DNA from: a virus
IMG/VR virus record: IMGVR_UViG_3300042731_005759
Location: 112,088-176,087 of that record
Reading direction: 5' to 3' (one strand)
Length of the DNA: 64,000 bases
Position numbers and translations under genes: made by a program. The first letter of the stretch is position 1. Every line of letters begins with the position of its first letter. The notes under the pieces were generated by a model. That model saw only the letters and a list, made by a program, of their open reading frames with translations, was not told the DNA's origin and made no database searches. Shown piece by piece: positions 11,351-24,743 of the stretch.

Positions 11351-11380
11351 TTACAATTAACTTTTTTTTGTCTATATATT
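11351..11380 (+). promoter_or_regulatory. Candidate sigma70-type early promoter for the RuvC-like gene
   Basis: TTACAA at 11351-11356 and TATATT at 11375-11380 are separated by 18 bases (or TATATA at 11373 by 16). The -10 lies 17 bases before the ATG at 11398. It falls at the boundary between the structural block and the DNA-metabolism block, which is where a promoter would be expected. Confidence 0.5.
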
Positions 11381-19453: not shown

Positions 19454-19491
19454 AAAATATTTTGTTTAACTTTGAAAAAACGATTAACCTT

Positions 19492-20166
19492 ATGATACCA
19501 AAAGAATATACTAGTTTTAATTTGTATGCTAAAGACCACAAAATTAGTGGTTCAGATTTACATTATTACAATAAACAAATTGAAAATAGTTTAACCCCGT
19601 ACATCTTAGAAGAGAGACAACTTAACGTTACTGTTATGGATGTTTTTTCTCGTTTGATGATGGAAAGAATTATATGGGTTGCAGGACCTGTAAATGACAA
19701 CATGTCGACTATCGTTCAGGCACAGTTAATGTTCTTGGACAGTTTAGATCATAATGACATTACAATGCATATCGACACACCAGGAGGTTCAGTTAAGTCA
19801 GGATTGTCTATGGTGGATGTTATGGATTACATCAACTCTGATATCAGAACCATCAATACAGGAATGGCGGCATCAATGGGTTCTATTTTACTTGGTGCAG
19901 GAACAAAAGGTAAAAGAGGTTCTTTGTCTTTTTCAAGAACGATGTTACATCAATCTAGTGGTGGTTTCCGTGGGAATATACAAGATGCAGAAATCGATAT
20001 GACTGAATGGAAAAAATTAAACAAACAACTATTTGAACTTTTGGGATCGTACTGTGGTAAGAAACCAGAAGTGGTTATGAATGATGCCACAAGAGACATG
20101 TGGTTATCCGCTGAAGAGGCTGTAGAGTACGGTATCATAGATAATGTTGTCAAGAAAAAAAAATGA
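19492..20166 (+). CDS. ClpP-like serine protease
   Basis: From the ATG at 19492 the protein has 224 residues. It has the full ClpP triad: Ser128 in GMAASMGSILL, His153 in MLHQSSGG and Asp202 in TRDMWLSAEEAVEYGIID, plus the DTPGGSV loop. ClpP peptidases form barrels that degrade unfolded proteins. In phages the fold is also used as a prohead maturation protease. No capsid genes are adjacent, so a maturation role cannot be claimed here. The N-terminal 45 residues are longer than in bacterial ClpP. An upstream TTG at 19462 would add ten residues. The gene sits after gp46 and before membrane-associated genes. Confidence 0.8.
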   Translation: MIPKEYTSFNLYAKDHKISGSDLHYYNKQIENSLTPYILEERQLNVTVMDVFSRLMMERIIWVAGPVNDNMSTIVQAQLMFLDSLDHNDITMHIDTPGGSVKSGLSMVDVMDYINSDIRTINTGMAASMGSILLGAGTKGKRGSLSFSRTMLHQSSGGFRGNIQDAEIDMTEWKKLNKQLFELLGSYCGKKPEVVMNDATRDMWLSAEEAVEYGIIDNVVKKKK

Positions 20167-22208: not shown

Positions 22209-22499
22209 ATGAGAAATTTTATTGACAAGTATTTCATTACCATACTATTCGTAATCCTTATTTTAACTTTTTTTAGGGGTTGTGGTGATAGTAGAGAACT
22301 ATCGGATATCAAAAAGGAAATCGAGACCATAAAAGAAAATACCTTTACAAAAGATGAGTTGGACCTTAGACTAAAAATCGAGGGACTTAAGAGTGAACAC
22401 AGAATGATACAAGCAACAGATAGAAAAATGTTCGACTTAAATAGACAATCTGAAATCGAAAAAGAGTTAGAGGTACTTCAGAAGGAGTTAAATAAGTAA
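22209..22499 (+). CDS. Small single-pass membrane protein with coiled coil
   Basis: The 96-residue protein has an N-terminal membrane helix (YFITILFVILILTFF) followed by RGCGDS and a charged coiled coil (ELSDIKKEIETIKEN and IEKELEVLQKELNK). It lies directly before the large membrane protein, one base apart, and in the same apparent late transcript as the amidase. This layout (small membrane proteins, then an amidase) is compatible with a lysis module containing holin or spanin functions, but no specific family is recognised. Confidence 0.6.
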   Translation: MRNFIDKYFITILFVILILTFFRGCGDSRELSDIKKEIETIKENTFTKDELDLRLKIEGLKSEHRMIQATDRKMFDLNRQSEIEKELEVLQKELNK

Positions 22500-23828
22500 A
22501 TGGGAAAGTGGTTCAACAAGAACTTTAGAACGATCATATATGTTGCGTTCTTAGTTCCTATTATTACCGTCGCAATCGTATCCATCTCACACGTTACTGT
22601 GTGGTATGGTATCTCAAATCCAATGTCGTGGGCACTATACCTTTCAATAGGTATTGAAATTGCCGCACTTTCTGCGTTAGCTGCGATATCAGCACAAATG
22701 GGATCAAAGGTTTATGTTCCATTTGGTATTGTTACGTTGATTCAATTCGTGGGTAACATATTTTTTGCATTTGAATTTATCAAAATAGATGCGGTACAAT
22801 TCTTATCGTGGGTTGAATTAACAGGACCCATATTAGAATACGTCGGTATTGAACAAACTGATTTACAAGCACACAGAAGATTTTTGGCAATATTTGCGGG
22901 TGGTATGTTACCACTAATTTCATTATCATTCCTACATATGTTAGTCAAGTTTAATGAAGAAAAACAGTTGGAGACAAAAGAGGAAGAGAGTGATGATACT
23001 AAAACGGTTATTGAAGAAGAAACTAAAATCAAACCTTCAGAGGAAGATTTAAATAGGTTAGAGGAACTACTTAGTAAGTTCAAACCTGAAGAAAGACCAA
23101 AAGAAGGTAAGACCATATTTGACGCACGAACAAAAGAATGGGATGAGGATGAAGTCGTTGGGAGCGAGTCACGAGAAGAGACTGTGGAAGATGACTCCTC
23201 TGATCATTTTGAGGGTATGTCTGCCGAGACAGCGTATGGTAACGCATATGCAGATGATCCGTCTTATGATGAATTACCACCTGAAGCGAGAGGTTTTAAA
23301 CCACCTGTAAATGAAGAAGAAACTTTGGATGAAGAACCACCTGAATGGTTTACAGAACAACCACCACTAACTGATGAAGAGTTAGAACAATGGGCAAAAG
23401 AATCCGAAGAGGTGGATAATCTTTATTGGAACGAACAATACCCTGAACCATCTGAAGATATCGTTGAGAAACCAAAACCAATCACTCCCAACAAATACGA
23501 AGATTTAGAAAAGTACTTGAGGGAGTCGAGATCTTGGAACACACAAAGTGATGAGGACTCGACACTACCCGATAAAGTAGAGGAGAAACAATTAGATCTT
23601 GATACAGGTGAAATTAAAGACAAAGAACCTGAGGTGACTGAAGAACTAAGAAACATTGATGTTGTTTTAGAGGAGTTACCAACTCCCGAGGGACCTAATT
23701 TCAGTGTAGATGTTCAGATTGATGAAATTCCTGAGGAAACACCTATACCCCAACCCGATTTAAATGTTGGTCAACCACTCCCTTTAGAAAATCAGGACGA
23801 AAACGAACCTGAAAAAAAAAATCAATAG
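22500..23828 (+). CDS. Multi-pass membrane protein with long acidic Pro-rich tail (zero-frame product)
   Basis: The 442-residue product has about four membrane segments in its first 155 residues (for example IIYVAFLVPIITVAIVSI, WALYLSIGIEIAALSALAAI, IVTLIQFVGNIFFAFEFI and FLAIFAGGMLPLISLSFL). A roughly 280-residue tail follows that is very acidic and rich in Pro and Glu. The frame ends at TAG 23826-23828, just after a run of ten A. In the -1 frame the coding pattern continues for another 115 codons with the Thr-Pro repeats used elsewhere in this genome, so this may be the shorter of two products. Function unknown. Position suggests an envelope or lysis role. Confidence 0.7.
   Translation: MGKWFNKNFRTIIYVAFLVPIITVAIVSISHVTVWYGISNPMSWALYLSIGIEIAALSALAAISAQMGSKVYVPFGIVTLIQFVGNIFFAFEFIKIDAVQFLSWVELTGPILEYVGIEQTDLQAHRRFLAIFAGGMLPLISLSFLHMLVKFNEEKQLETKEEESDDTKTVIEEETKIKPSEEDLNRLEELLSKFKPEERPKEGKTIFDARTKEWDEDEVVGSESREETVEDDSSDHFEGMSAETAYGNAYADDPSYDELPPEARGFKPPVNEEETLDEEPPEWFTEQPPLTDEELEQWAKESEEVDNLYWNEQYPEPSEDIVEKPKPITPNKYEDLEKYLRESRSWNTQSDEDSTLPDKVEEKQLDLDTGEIKDKEPEVTEELRNIDVVLEELPTPEGPNFSVDVQIDEIPEETPIPQPDLNVGQPLPLENQDENEPEKKNQ
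23812..23821 (+). other. A10 slippery tract, candidate -1 frameshift site
   Basis: Ten consecutive A follow a G at 23811; zero-frame codons are GAA AAA AAA AAT CAA TAG. A -1 slip on A AAA AAA moves the ribosome into an open frame that avoids the TAG and runs to TAA at 24167. The same run could also cause RNA polymerase slippage or be a sequencing length error. Confidence 0.6.
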
Positions 23829-24169
23829 AACCTACAGATCACCCAACACCAATATTAACTTCGACACCTTTTAGTACACCGATACCAACATCTACTCCTT
23901 TTCCCACACAACTTCCTACACAAACACCATTACCAACAAATACACCAGGTCCAACACCTTACCCCACTTCAACTCTTCGACCTACTGAAACACCTTTACC
24001 TACAGTTACGGTAGAACCAACACCCACACCTCCACCTACAGAATACATAGATCAATTATATTCTGAGAGTATAAATATTGGTACCCCACCACCCATGGAA
24101 CCATTAATTAAGATGGGTGGAAAAGTAATTAGAAGAAATGTTGGAAATTCGAGACGTAGAAATAATTAA
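23822..24169 (+). CDS. Thr-Pro-rich -1 frame extension of the membrane protein
   Basis: Reading TCA at 23822 onward gives 115 codons without a stop: a Thr-Pro-rich stretch (for example TPIPTSTPFPTQLPTQTPLP) followed by EYIDQLYSESINIG, then PPPMEPLIKMGGKVIRR and a basic end. There is no start codon until the ATG near 24094, so it cannot be an ordinary separate gene. A frameshift fusion would give a protein of about 556 residues: membrane domain, acidic tail, Thr-Pro linker and basic C-terminus. It overlaps the amidase start by 32 bases, like other overlaps in this genome. This fills the otherwise geneless 310 bases between 23828 and 24138. Confidence 0.6.
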   Translation, partial: SIEPTDHPTPILTSTPFSTPIPTSTPFPTQLPTQTPLPTNTPGPTPYPTSTLRPTETPLPTVTVEPTPTPPPTEYIDQLYSESINIGTPPPMEPLIKMGGKVIRRNVGNSRRRNN

Positions 24170-24743
24170 TAAAGATGAACTGAATCATCCAAAAAAGTCA
24201 TATAAGAAGAAACAAATTCTTTTATATGACACAAAAAGACGTATTGACGATTTTATCAATAAAATAAAATATCGACAAAATGGTCAATATGAGGATATAC
24301 CTCATTTTATTGTCACAAAAATGGGTGACATATACCAAATATTAGACACTAAGTATCATTCAAAAACATTCGGGGAACATAAAATAGATTGTAGACAAAT
24401 TAAGGTCGCAGTAGAAAATTTAGGTTGGTTAAATAAGAATACCATTACAGGTTATTATAGTAATTGGATTGGCGACCCACATAGATCAGATCCATTCGTT
24501 AGAAGTTGGAGAGATAAATTCTATTGGGACAGGTACACTGATGTCCAAATAGAAAGTATTATAGAACTATGTGTAAATCTTTGTAAAGAACACAATATTA
24601 AAGATAGGATAGTACCTTCTAATGGATTTATAGAAAATATAGAGAAATTCGAGGGAATTGTATGCAAATCCAACTTTTCAAATATTTATACAGATATAAA
24701 CCCTTCGTTTAATTTTAAAAAATTTACTGAGGTCGAAATTTAA
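24138..24743 (+). CDS. N-acetylmuramoyl-L-alanine amidase-like endolysin (Amidase_2 fold)
   Basis: The 201-residue protein fits the Amidase_2/AmpD plan. IPHFIVTKMGDIYQIL carries zinc ligand His56, and QIKVAVENLGWL follows the usual strand. YTDVQIESIIELCVNLCKEH is the Q-helix region, and GIVCKSNFSNIYTDINPSF carries the last ligands. In AmpD these are His154 and Asp164, ten residues apart; here Cys176 and Asp186 have the same spacing, so His appears replaced by Cys. Such enzymes cut the peptide from the glycan in peptidoglycan and usually serve phage lysis. Small membrane-protein genes upstream fit a lysis module. No signal peptide is seen, so it would need a holin-type partner. Confidence 0.65.
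   Translation: MLEIRDVEIINKDELNHPKKSYKKKQILLYDTKRRIDDFINKIKYRQNGQYEDIPHFIVTKMGDIYQILDTKYHSKTFGEHKIDCRQIKVAVENLGWLNKNTITGYYSNWIGDPHRSDPFVRSWRDKFYWDRYTDVQIESIIELCVNLCKEHNIKDRIVPSNGFIENIEKFEGIVCKSNFSNIYTDINPSFNFKKFTEVEI

Follow-up and report, generated by a model that had tools for sequence, protein, structure and literature searches.

A Conserved A10 Tract at a Frame Junction in a Phage Membrane-Protein Gene, a Likely Site of Programmed Transcriptional Slippage

When an open reading frame closes just beyond a run of ten adenines, and the -1 frame then continues for 115 codons with no start of its own, the question is whether the second frame is expressed and, if so, by what means. Such a junction occurs in a 176-kb virus contig (IMG/VR record IMGVR_UViG_3300042731_005759), whose terminal part, positions 112,088 to 176,087, constitutes the 64,000-nucleotide window analysed here; coordinates below refer to this window, and all features of the locus lie on its plus strand. 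A first-pass annotation, made from the letters alone, had proposed that slippage of the ribosome or of the polymerase on the adenine run fuses the two frames into a single protein. Comparison with related phages indicates that the slippage site is very probably a real and selected gene-expression switch, and we consider it likely that programmed RNA-polymerase slippage at the A10 tract gives a membrane protein with four transmembrane (TM) segments in two forms that differ at the C-terminus.

The tract and its two reading frames

The A10 tract occupies exactly positions 23812-23821, near the 3' end of an open reading frame (ORF) at 22500-23828 whose zero-frame end reads ...GAA AAA AAA AAT CAA TAG, with the TAG stop (23826-23828) situated 4 nt past the tract. 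This frame encodes the 442-aa short isoform, which consists of a 4-TM domain followed by an acidic linker (93 Asp or Glu versus 30 Lys or Arg). In the -1 frame no stop codon is met between 23813 and 24167-24169, and the post-tract portion of this frame (23822-24166, or 23822-24169 with the stop) is a Thr/Pro-rich extension of 115 codons in which the first ATG, GTG or TTG appears only at 24095, close to the frame's end. A -1 shift at the tract gives a computed product of 556 aa, the size that had been anticipated for the long isoform. The tract exceeds what chance would produce: it is the only A/T tract of at least 10 in the 176-kb contig, where tracts of at least 9 number four; and in the other coding sequence of the window and related loci (312,547 bases) there are no A runs of at least 10 and five A9 runs. 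Elsewhere in the window, an A9 at 20155-20163 falls at the very end of a Clp/head-maturation-protease ORF (19462-20166), directly 5' of its TGA; it was considered as a second case of frameshifting and rejected, the -1 frame there stopping within a few codons.

Relatives were gathered from IMG/VR in three overlapping scans, which returned 288, 259 and 245 confirmed matches; with the best 80 of each kept and identical proteins dropped, 92 distinct proteins were available, that of the window included. Because the scans used the N-terminal domain, the set is unbiased towards the tract. Annotated and isolate-phage collections yielded only one distant relative, encoded without the tract by a 462-kb uncultured phage.

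The 92 proteins fall into three architectures. In the one shared with the window (48 proteins), an A9 (2), A10 (36) or A11 (10) tract is followed within 0-12 nt by the zero-frame stop, and the extension lies in the -1 frame in all 48 and in the +1 frame in none: the -1 frame runs for 33-151 aa (17 aa in one protein truncated where its contig ends), as against 3-39 aa for the +1 frame. A basic tail, RNVxNSxRRR, closes the extension in 42 of the 48. Among the remaining six, the tail is missing from the extensions of L072, L090, L165, L168 and L120, and L073 continues past the edge of its contig; the first four of these carry A11 and a -1 extension of 33-34 aa that ends just upstream of the ATG of the adjoining endolysin gene, at a distance of about 5 nt or less.

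Four relatives (L017, L022, L028 and L111) have the second architecture, in which an extension and tail of this type are fused in the zero frame. When their whole ORFs are read, all four retain A10, and two of them do so twice (at aa 271 and 457 in L017 and at aa 256 and 349 in L028), whereas L022 has an A9 besides its A10 (tracts at aa 385 and 403). In these fused genes a slip into either alternative frame truncates the protein within 25 codons, and the paired long A tracts in the open frame of L017, L028 and L022 could give rise to several truncated forms. In a tree of the N-terminal domain, L017 is with strong support the sister of L018, which has the split arrangement, and the frames have therefore swapped while the tract persisted. 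In L111, the intervening stop appears to have been lost through a change downstream of the tract, not inside it.

The third class, a sister clade with a short fused form, contains 40 proteins, mostly of about 220-305 aa, which have no long linker and no terminal tract; most of them close with a tail resembling KxLSYxRRDA where the endolysin gene begins; L195 and L200 are counted here, their tail being in frame. On the N-terminal tree this short class requires two changes, but many deep branches lack resolution, and the tree therefore gives no firm count of independent frame swaps. A separate feature of the short-form L195 is an A9 (aa 227) near its 3' end, past which the +1 frame continues into the endolysin frame (208 codons). 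The homologues thus include both arrangements that had been suggested as a check, i.e., fused frames (four) and the same run with an open -1 frame (48), and they bear out the view of the extension as a fusion to the upstream membrane protein.

Selection on the extension and constancy of the tract

To gauge whether the extension evolves as protein, ratios of nonsynonymous to synonymous change, both as substitution rates (Ka/Ks) and as proportions of sites (pN/pS), were obtained for relatives with N-terminal domains at least 85% identical, after removal of the last 12 codons, which overlap the endolysin gene. Ka/Ks in the extension is mostly 0.06-0.5, and its pooled pN/pS of 0.46, taken over 62 non-independent pairs, is within the range of the zero-frame linker. 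In addition, a motif like LYWExDDxNPNQxIYDLENN reappears in the -1 frame of divergent relatives. By these comparisons purifying selection acts on most of the -1 extensions, which evolve as protein.

The constancy of the tract was assessed within strains. A DNA pattern built on the unique flanking sequences of a single common phage, with A6 to A14 allowed between them, found 13 contigs (13 records), and all 13 carry A10, since every match to the pattern is 35 nt long. Likewise, each of 12 strain groups has one constant tract length (12/12), although some loci in this comparison are the same contig fetched repeatedly, such that the counts are not counts of contigs. The annotation had asked whether the run is exactly 10 A, and a length of 9 or 11 in the true DNA is now very unlikely.

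These observations bear on three explanations that dispense with slippage during expression. If the -1 frame were untranslated, it would be a spurious ORF 5' of the endolysin gene whose tail is conserved on account of the overlapping endolysin start; although the RNVxNSxRRR tail does overlap that start, and the frame has no start codon of its own, a Ka/Ks well under 1 outside the overlap in most pairs, the natural fusions, and the recurrence of the LYWExDDxNPNQxIYDLENN-like motif make this highly improbable. A sequencing or assembly error concealing a single continuous ORF might be suspected because homopolymers are error-prone with some technologies, but the same layout is present in 48 distinct homologues with differing flanks, as well as in repeat assemblies of the same phages, and a systematic error would also need to place a stop 0-12 nt downstream in every homologue; we give this explanation practically no weight, and conclude from the repeated occurrence of the A10 arrangement that it is not an artefact. 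Nor is it at all likely that slippage during DNA replication alters the tract length, so that each phage encodes either the short or the long form. Homopolymers mutate quickly, and the four fused relatives could be viewed as products of such phase variation; however, each strain group has a single length (A10 in all 13 records of the common phage, and constancy in all 12 groups), A10 is retained in the fused relatives, and the loss of the stop in L111 apparently lies outside the tract.

Slippage by polymerase or by ribosome

The annotation had left the choice between ribosomal and polymerase slippage open. Slippage itself is supported, and the evidence favours the polymerase without settling the matter between the two. 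In the favoured mechanism, the host RNA polymerase would slip while copying A10, and a portion of the mRNAs would gain one extra A; standard translation of such a slipped mRNA would pass into the -1 frame and give the form of about 556 aa, and an unslipped mRNA would give the 442-aa form. The tract and its conservation, the constant direction, the coding selection on the extension and the natural fusions are shown by the sequences; the transcriptional nature of the slippage, the insertion of +1 A and the production of both isoforms we infer.

The tract is never shorter than 9 in 48 of 48 loci, whereas a ribosomal -1 slip (on A_AAA_AAA or A_AAA_AAG) needs a run of only 6-8. AAA-AAA is followed by an AAN codon in every one of the 48, although AAN makes up 11.7% of linker codons, and at none of the tract loci is the tract interrupted by AAG, though 18% of Lys codons are AAG. 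A run of at least 9, a constant AAN and the lack of AAG together fit the needs of a 9-10 bp RNA-DNA hybrid, which is the length of the hybrid in bacterial RNA polymerase, an enzyme that slips efficiently on 9 A/T (PMC5009743); A tracts longer than 7, moreover, are regarded as polymerase-type sites (PMC3711429). The direction is also as expected: on A tracts, including that of Thermus dnaX, RNA polymerase is reported to add one or more As (PMC5009743), which predicts a -1 and not a +1 shift, and -1 is the sole alternative frame in use. On its sequence features the gene would belong to the class expressed by poly-A transcriptional slippage, having at the frame junction a homopolymer of at least 9 A/T (A9-A11 in 48/48, and A10 in 4/4 fused relatives) and a conserved product in the alternative frame.

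The stimulators that often accompany ribosomal frameshifting were also sought. The 75 nt 3' of the tract fold no better than shuffled sequences (mean z -0.28 over 47 loci), and in the window the downstream fold has a dG of 0.0 kcal/mol. Shine-Dalgarno (SD) sequences are not enriched at the ORF starts of the window (6 of 45, versus 11.6% by chance), and these 45 starts are A/T-rich, both as expected for Bacteroidota phages. A Bacteroidota host is plausible because the closest cultured primases include those of Flavobacterium phages (32% identity), and the ribosomes of Bacteroidia do not recognise SD sequences (PMC9976891).

Production of both isoforms from one mRNA by -1 ribosomal frameshifting on A_AAA_AAA, either without a stimulator or with a weak SD-like one, is the most substantial alternative, and several observations count in its favour and against polymerase slippage. 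The A_AAA_AAA heptamer inside A10 is a good ribosomal slip site too, and is in register in both of the phases observed; the strictly constant -1 direction is what tandem ribosomal slippage yields; a CAGGA situated 14 nt 5' of the tract in the four closest phages is a possible SD-like stimulator; and stimulator-free cases are known in phages (PMC5009743). A few downstream regions do fold well individually (z of about -4 in L010 and L052, and -2.7 in L032). The case for a selected switch is further weakened in that the 48 tract-bearing loci share kinship and are not independent, and that some short extensions have a Ka/Ks near 1 (L029/L032 and L064/L077) or, in L035/L057 with its single synonymous change, above 1. 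Moreover, the conservation of the RNVGNSRRR tail is not independent evidence of coding, because the tail is dual-coded with the endolysin start, and we have rejected it as such. Against ribosomal frameshifting, seven or eight As would be enough, but no run is shorter than 9 and an AAN codon always comes next; the strong E. coli site A_AAA_AAG, which works with a shorter run, is never used; there is no conserved downstream structure; and SD sequences are not in use, which ribosomes of Bacteroidia, should the host belong there, do not recognise (PMC9976891). The CAGGA is absent outside the four closest loci and was rejected as a general SD-like element. Since stimulators are common but not obligatory, their lack lowers the standing of the gene as a -1 ribosomal frameshift gene, for which the in-register heptamer would qualify it, without excluding it. 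Taken together, we regard a purely ribosomal origin of the two isoforms as unlikely, though it deserves to be taken seriously; and it may be that polymerase and ribosomal slippage both occur.

The lysis-like cassette and comparison with known systems

The conserved 4-TM domain spans aa 1-158 (22500-22973) and, in an alignment of 67 sequences, bears the signature SISHVTxWYGxSNPxxW ... TLIQFxGN ... AGGMLPxISLSFLH. Its AlphaFold model is all-helical (mean pLDDT 78); Foldseek gave no match to the PDB at E<=0.001, and its only two significant viral matches are uncharacterised proteins of uncultured phages. Searches of Pfam and PHROG assigned the membrane protein no family and no function, the best match being phrog_33625 at E=0.051. 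Directly upstream, at 22209-22499, lies a gene for a 96-aa protein that has an N-terminal TM segment and a coiled coil, a spanin-like shape, and the motif SEKRMIQxTDRKxLDVxRQ; it matches no known family apart from a weak match to PHROG 25409, a family of unknown function. An equivalent gene of about 89-104 aa is found directly upstream in 17 other loci checked (gap or overlap of -4 to +7 nt), and at 61 nt in L013. Downstream, an endolysin gene (24138-24743), which the first-pass annotation had overlooked, starts inside the end of the extension and encodes an N-acetylmuramoyl-L-alanine amidase (Amidase_2; PF01510 in Pfam, with an E-value of 2.2e-8 that passes the curated threshold). The basic tail of the long isoform, RNVGNSRRRNN (24134-24166), is thus dual-coded with the endolysin N-terminus, the ATG of which lies within the N-V codons.

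This gene order, i.e., the TM/coiled-coil gene of 89-104 aa, the 4-TM slippage protein and the Amidase_2-type endolysin, is constant in the relatives checked. The same cassette is carried by L013 (RFNS01000300.1, 3339 bp), which is filed in an alphaproteobacterial metagenome-assembled genome from a lake and is probably a mis-binned phage contig. Among genes with the window's architecture, the endolysin usually starts 31-34 nt before the extension ends; the pattern used to detect it missed 11 of the 48 loci, in most of which the same ATG overlap is visible by column analysis. From this geometry, including that of the tail-less L072, L090, L165 and L168, it follows that the tail-bearing frame is the one that reaches the endolysin start.

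By its gene content the locus resembles a lysis cassette of spanin-like, holin-like and endolysin genes. The context is that of a holin, with four helical hydrophobic segments encoded by a gene that overlaps an Amidase_2 gene; no sequence or fold match to a holin was found in Pfam or the PDB, the PHROG match given above being the only one. As neither a known family nor a solved fold matches the 4-TM domain, a holin function is a hypothesis. Given the position of the gene between a spanin-like gene and the endolysin gene, and an endolysin start inside the extension, one may speculate that the short and long products serve as a dual-isoform, holin-like lysis protein and that, on slipped messages, translational coupling leads ribosomes to the start of the endolysin gene. 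A more specific and decidedly tentative proposal is that A10 slippage serves as a lysis device of set ratio, in which tailed and tail-less holin-like forms are made and only slipped messages deliver ribosomes to the endolysin start, thereby setting both the isoform balance and the endolysin output. In the same window, a T-run-G motif (CTTTTTTTTGT...) is repeated at 11362, 12113, 27249, 30514 and 27978, before genes or in short intergenic stretches; these repeats could be a promoter element (of the TTTG type, as in Bacteroidota) or terminator tracts.

Within the collections and literature searched, both this family of proteins and its use in a lysis-like cassette appear to be new. The conserved recoding described in phages is mainly that of tail-chaperone genes, where it is ribosomal; if our interpretation is correct, this A tract, long, fixed in length, conserved in a large set of environmental phages and retained in relatives with a swapped genomic frame, would give phages a clear example of programmed polymerase slippage and allow the evolutionary tuning of slippage to be measured. 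If the link to lysis also holds, it would represent a new route to lysis proteins of dual form. Because routine annotation either separates the extension from the gene or omits it, this protein is probably mis-annotated in many genomes.

Two membrane-protein forms from one gene beside an endolysin gene have a precedent in the lambda S105/S107-type holins, which arise from two start codons and differ at the N-terminus; here, the difference is a C-terminal extension, and the holin role is hypothetical. As in E. coli dnaX and lambda gpG/gpGT, the -1 frame is used and one gene gives two isoforms. Lambda gpG/gpGT, whose slip site is G_GGA_AAG, is also the phage precedent for a minor extension product that is required. 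E. coli dnaX relies on A_AAA_AAG with SD and stem-loop stimulators (PMC3711429); at the present locus there is a long uniform A tract, and stimulators were undetected. A parallel for the geometry is Shigella spa13, in which transcriptional slippage produces a C-terminal extension of about 112 aa that at its end runs into the beginning of the following gene and influences how that gene is expressed (PMC5009743); unlike in this bacterial secretion gene, to which there is no sequence relation, the next gene here is an endolysin gene and the coupling is only inferred. A further resemblance is to the dnaX genes of Thermus thermophilus and Chlorobi (A10 in the latter), which are expressed by programmed transcriptional slippage and likewise have an A9-A10 tract within the gene, no need of stimulators and two C-terminal isoforms, and in which the isoform encoded in the genomic frame also varies between relatives (PMC5009743, PMC3711429). 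The phage gene differs from Thermus dnaX in encoding an unrelated membrane protein, and in that its usual genomic frame is that of the short form; the four fused relatives, by contrast, match the layout reported for the slippage-expressed Thermus dnaX (PMC5009743).
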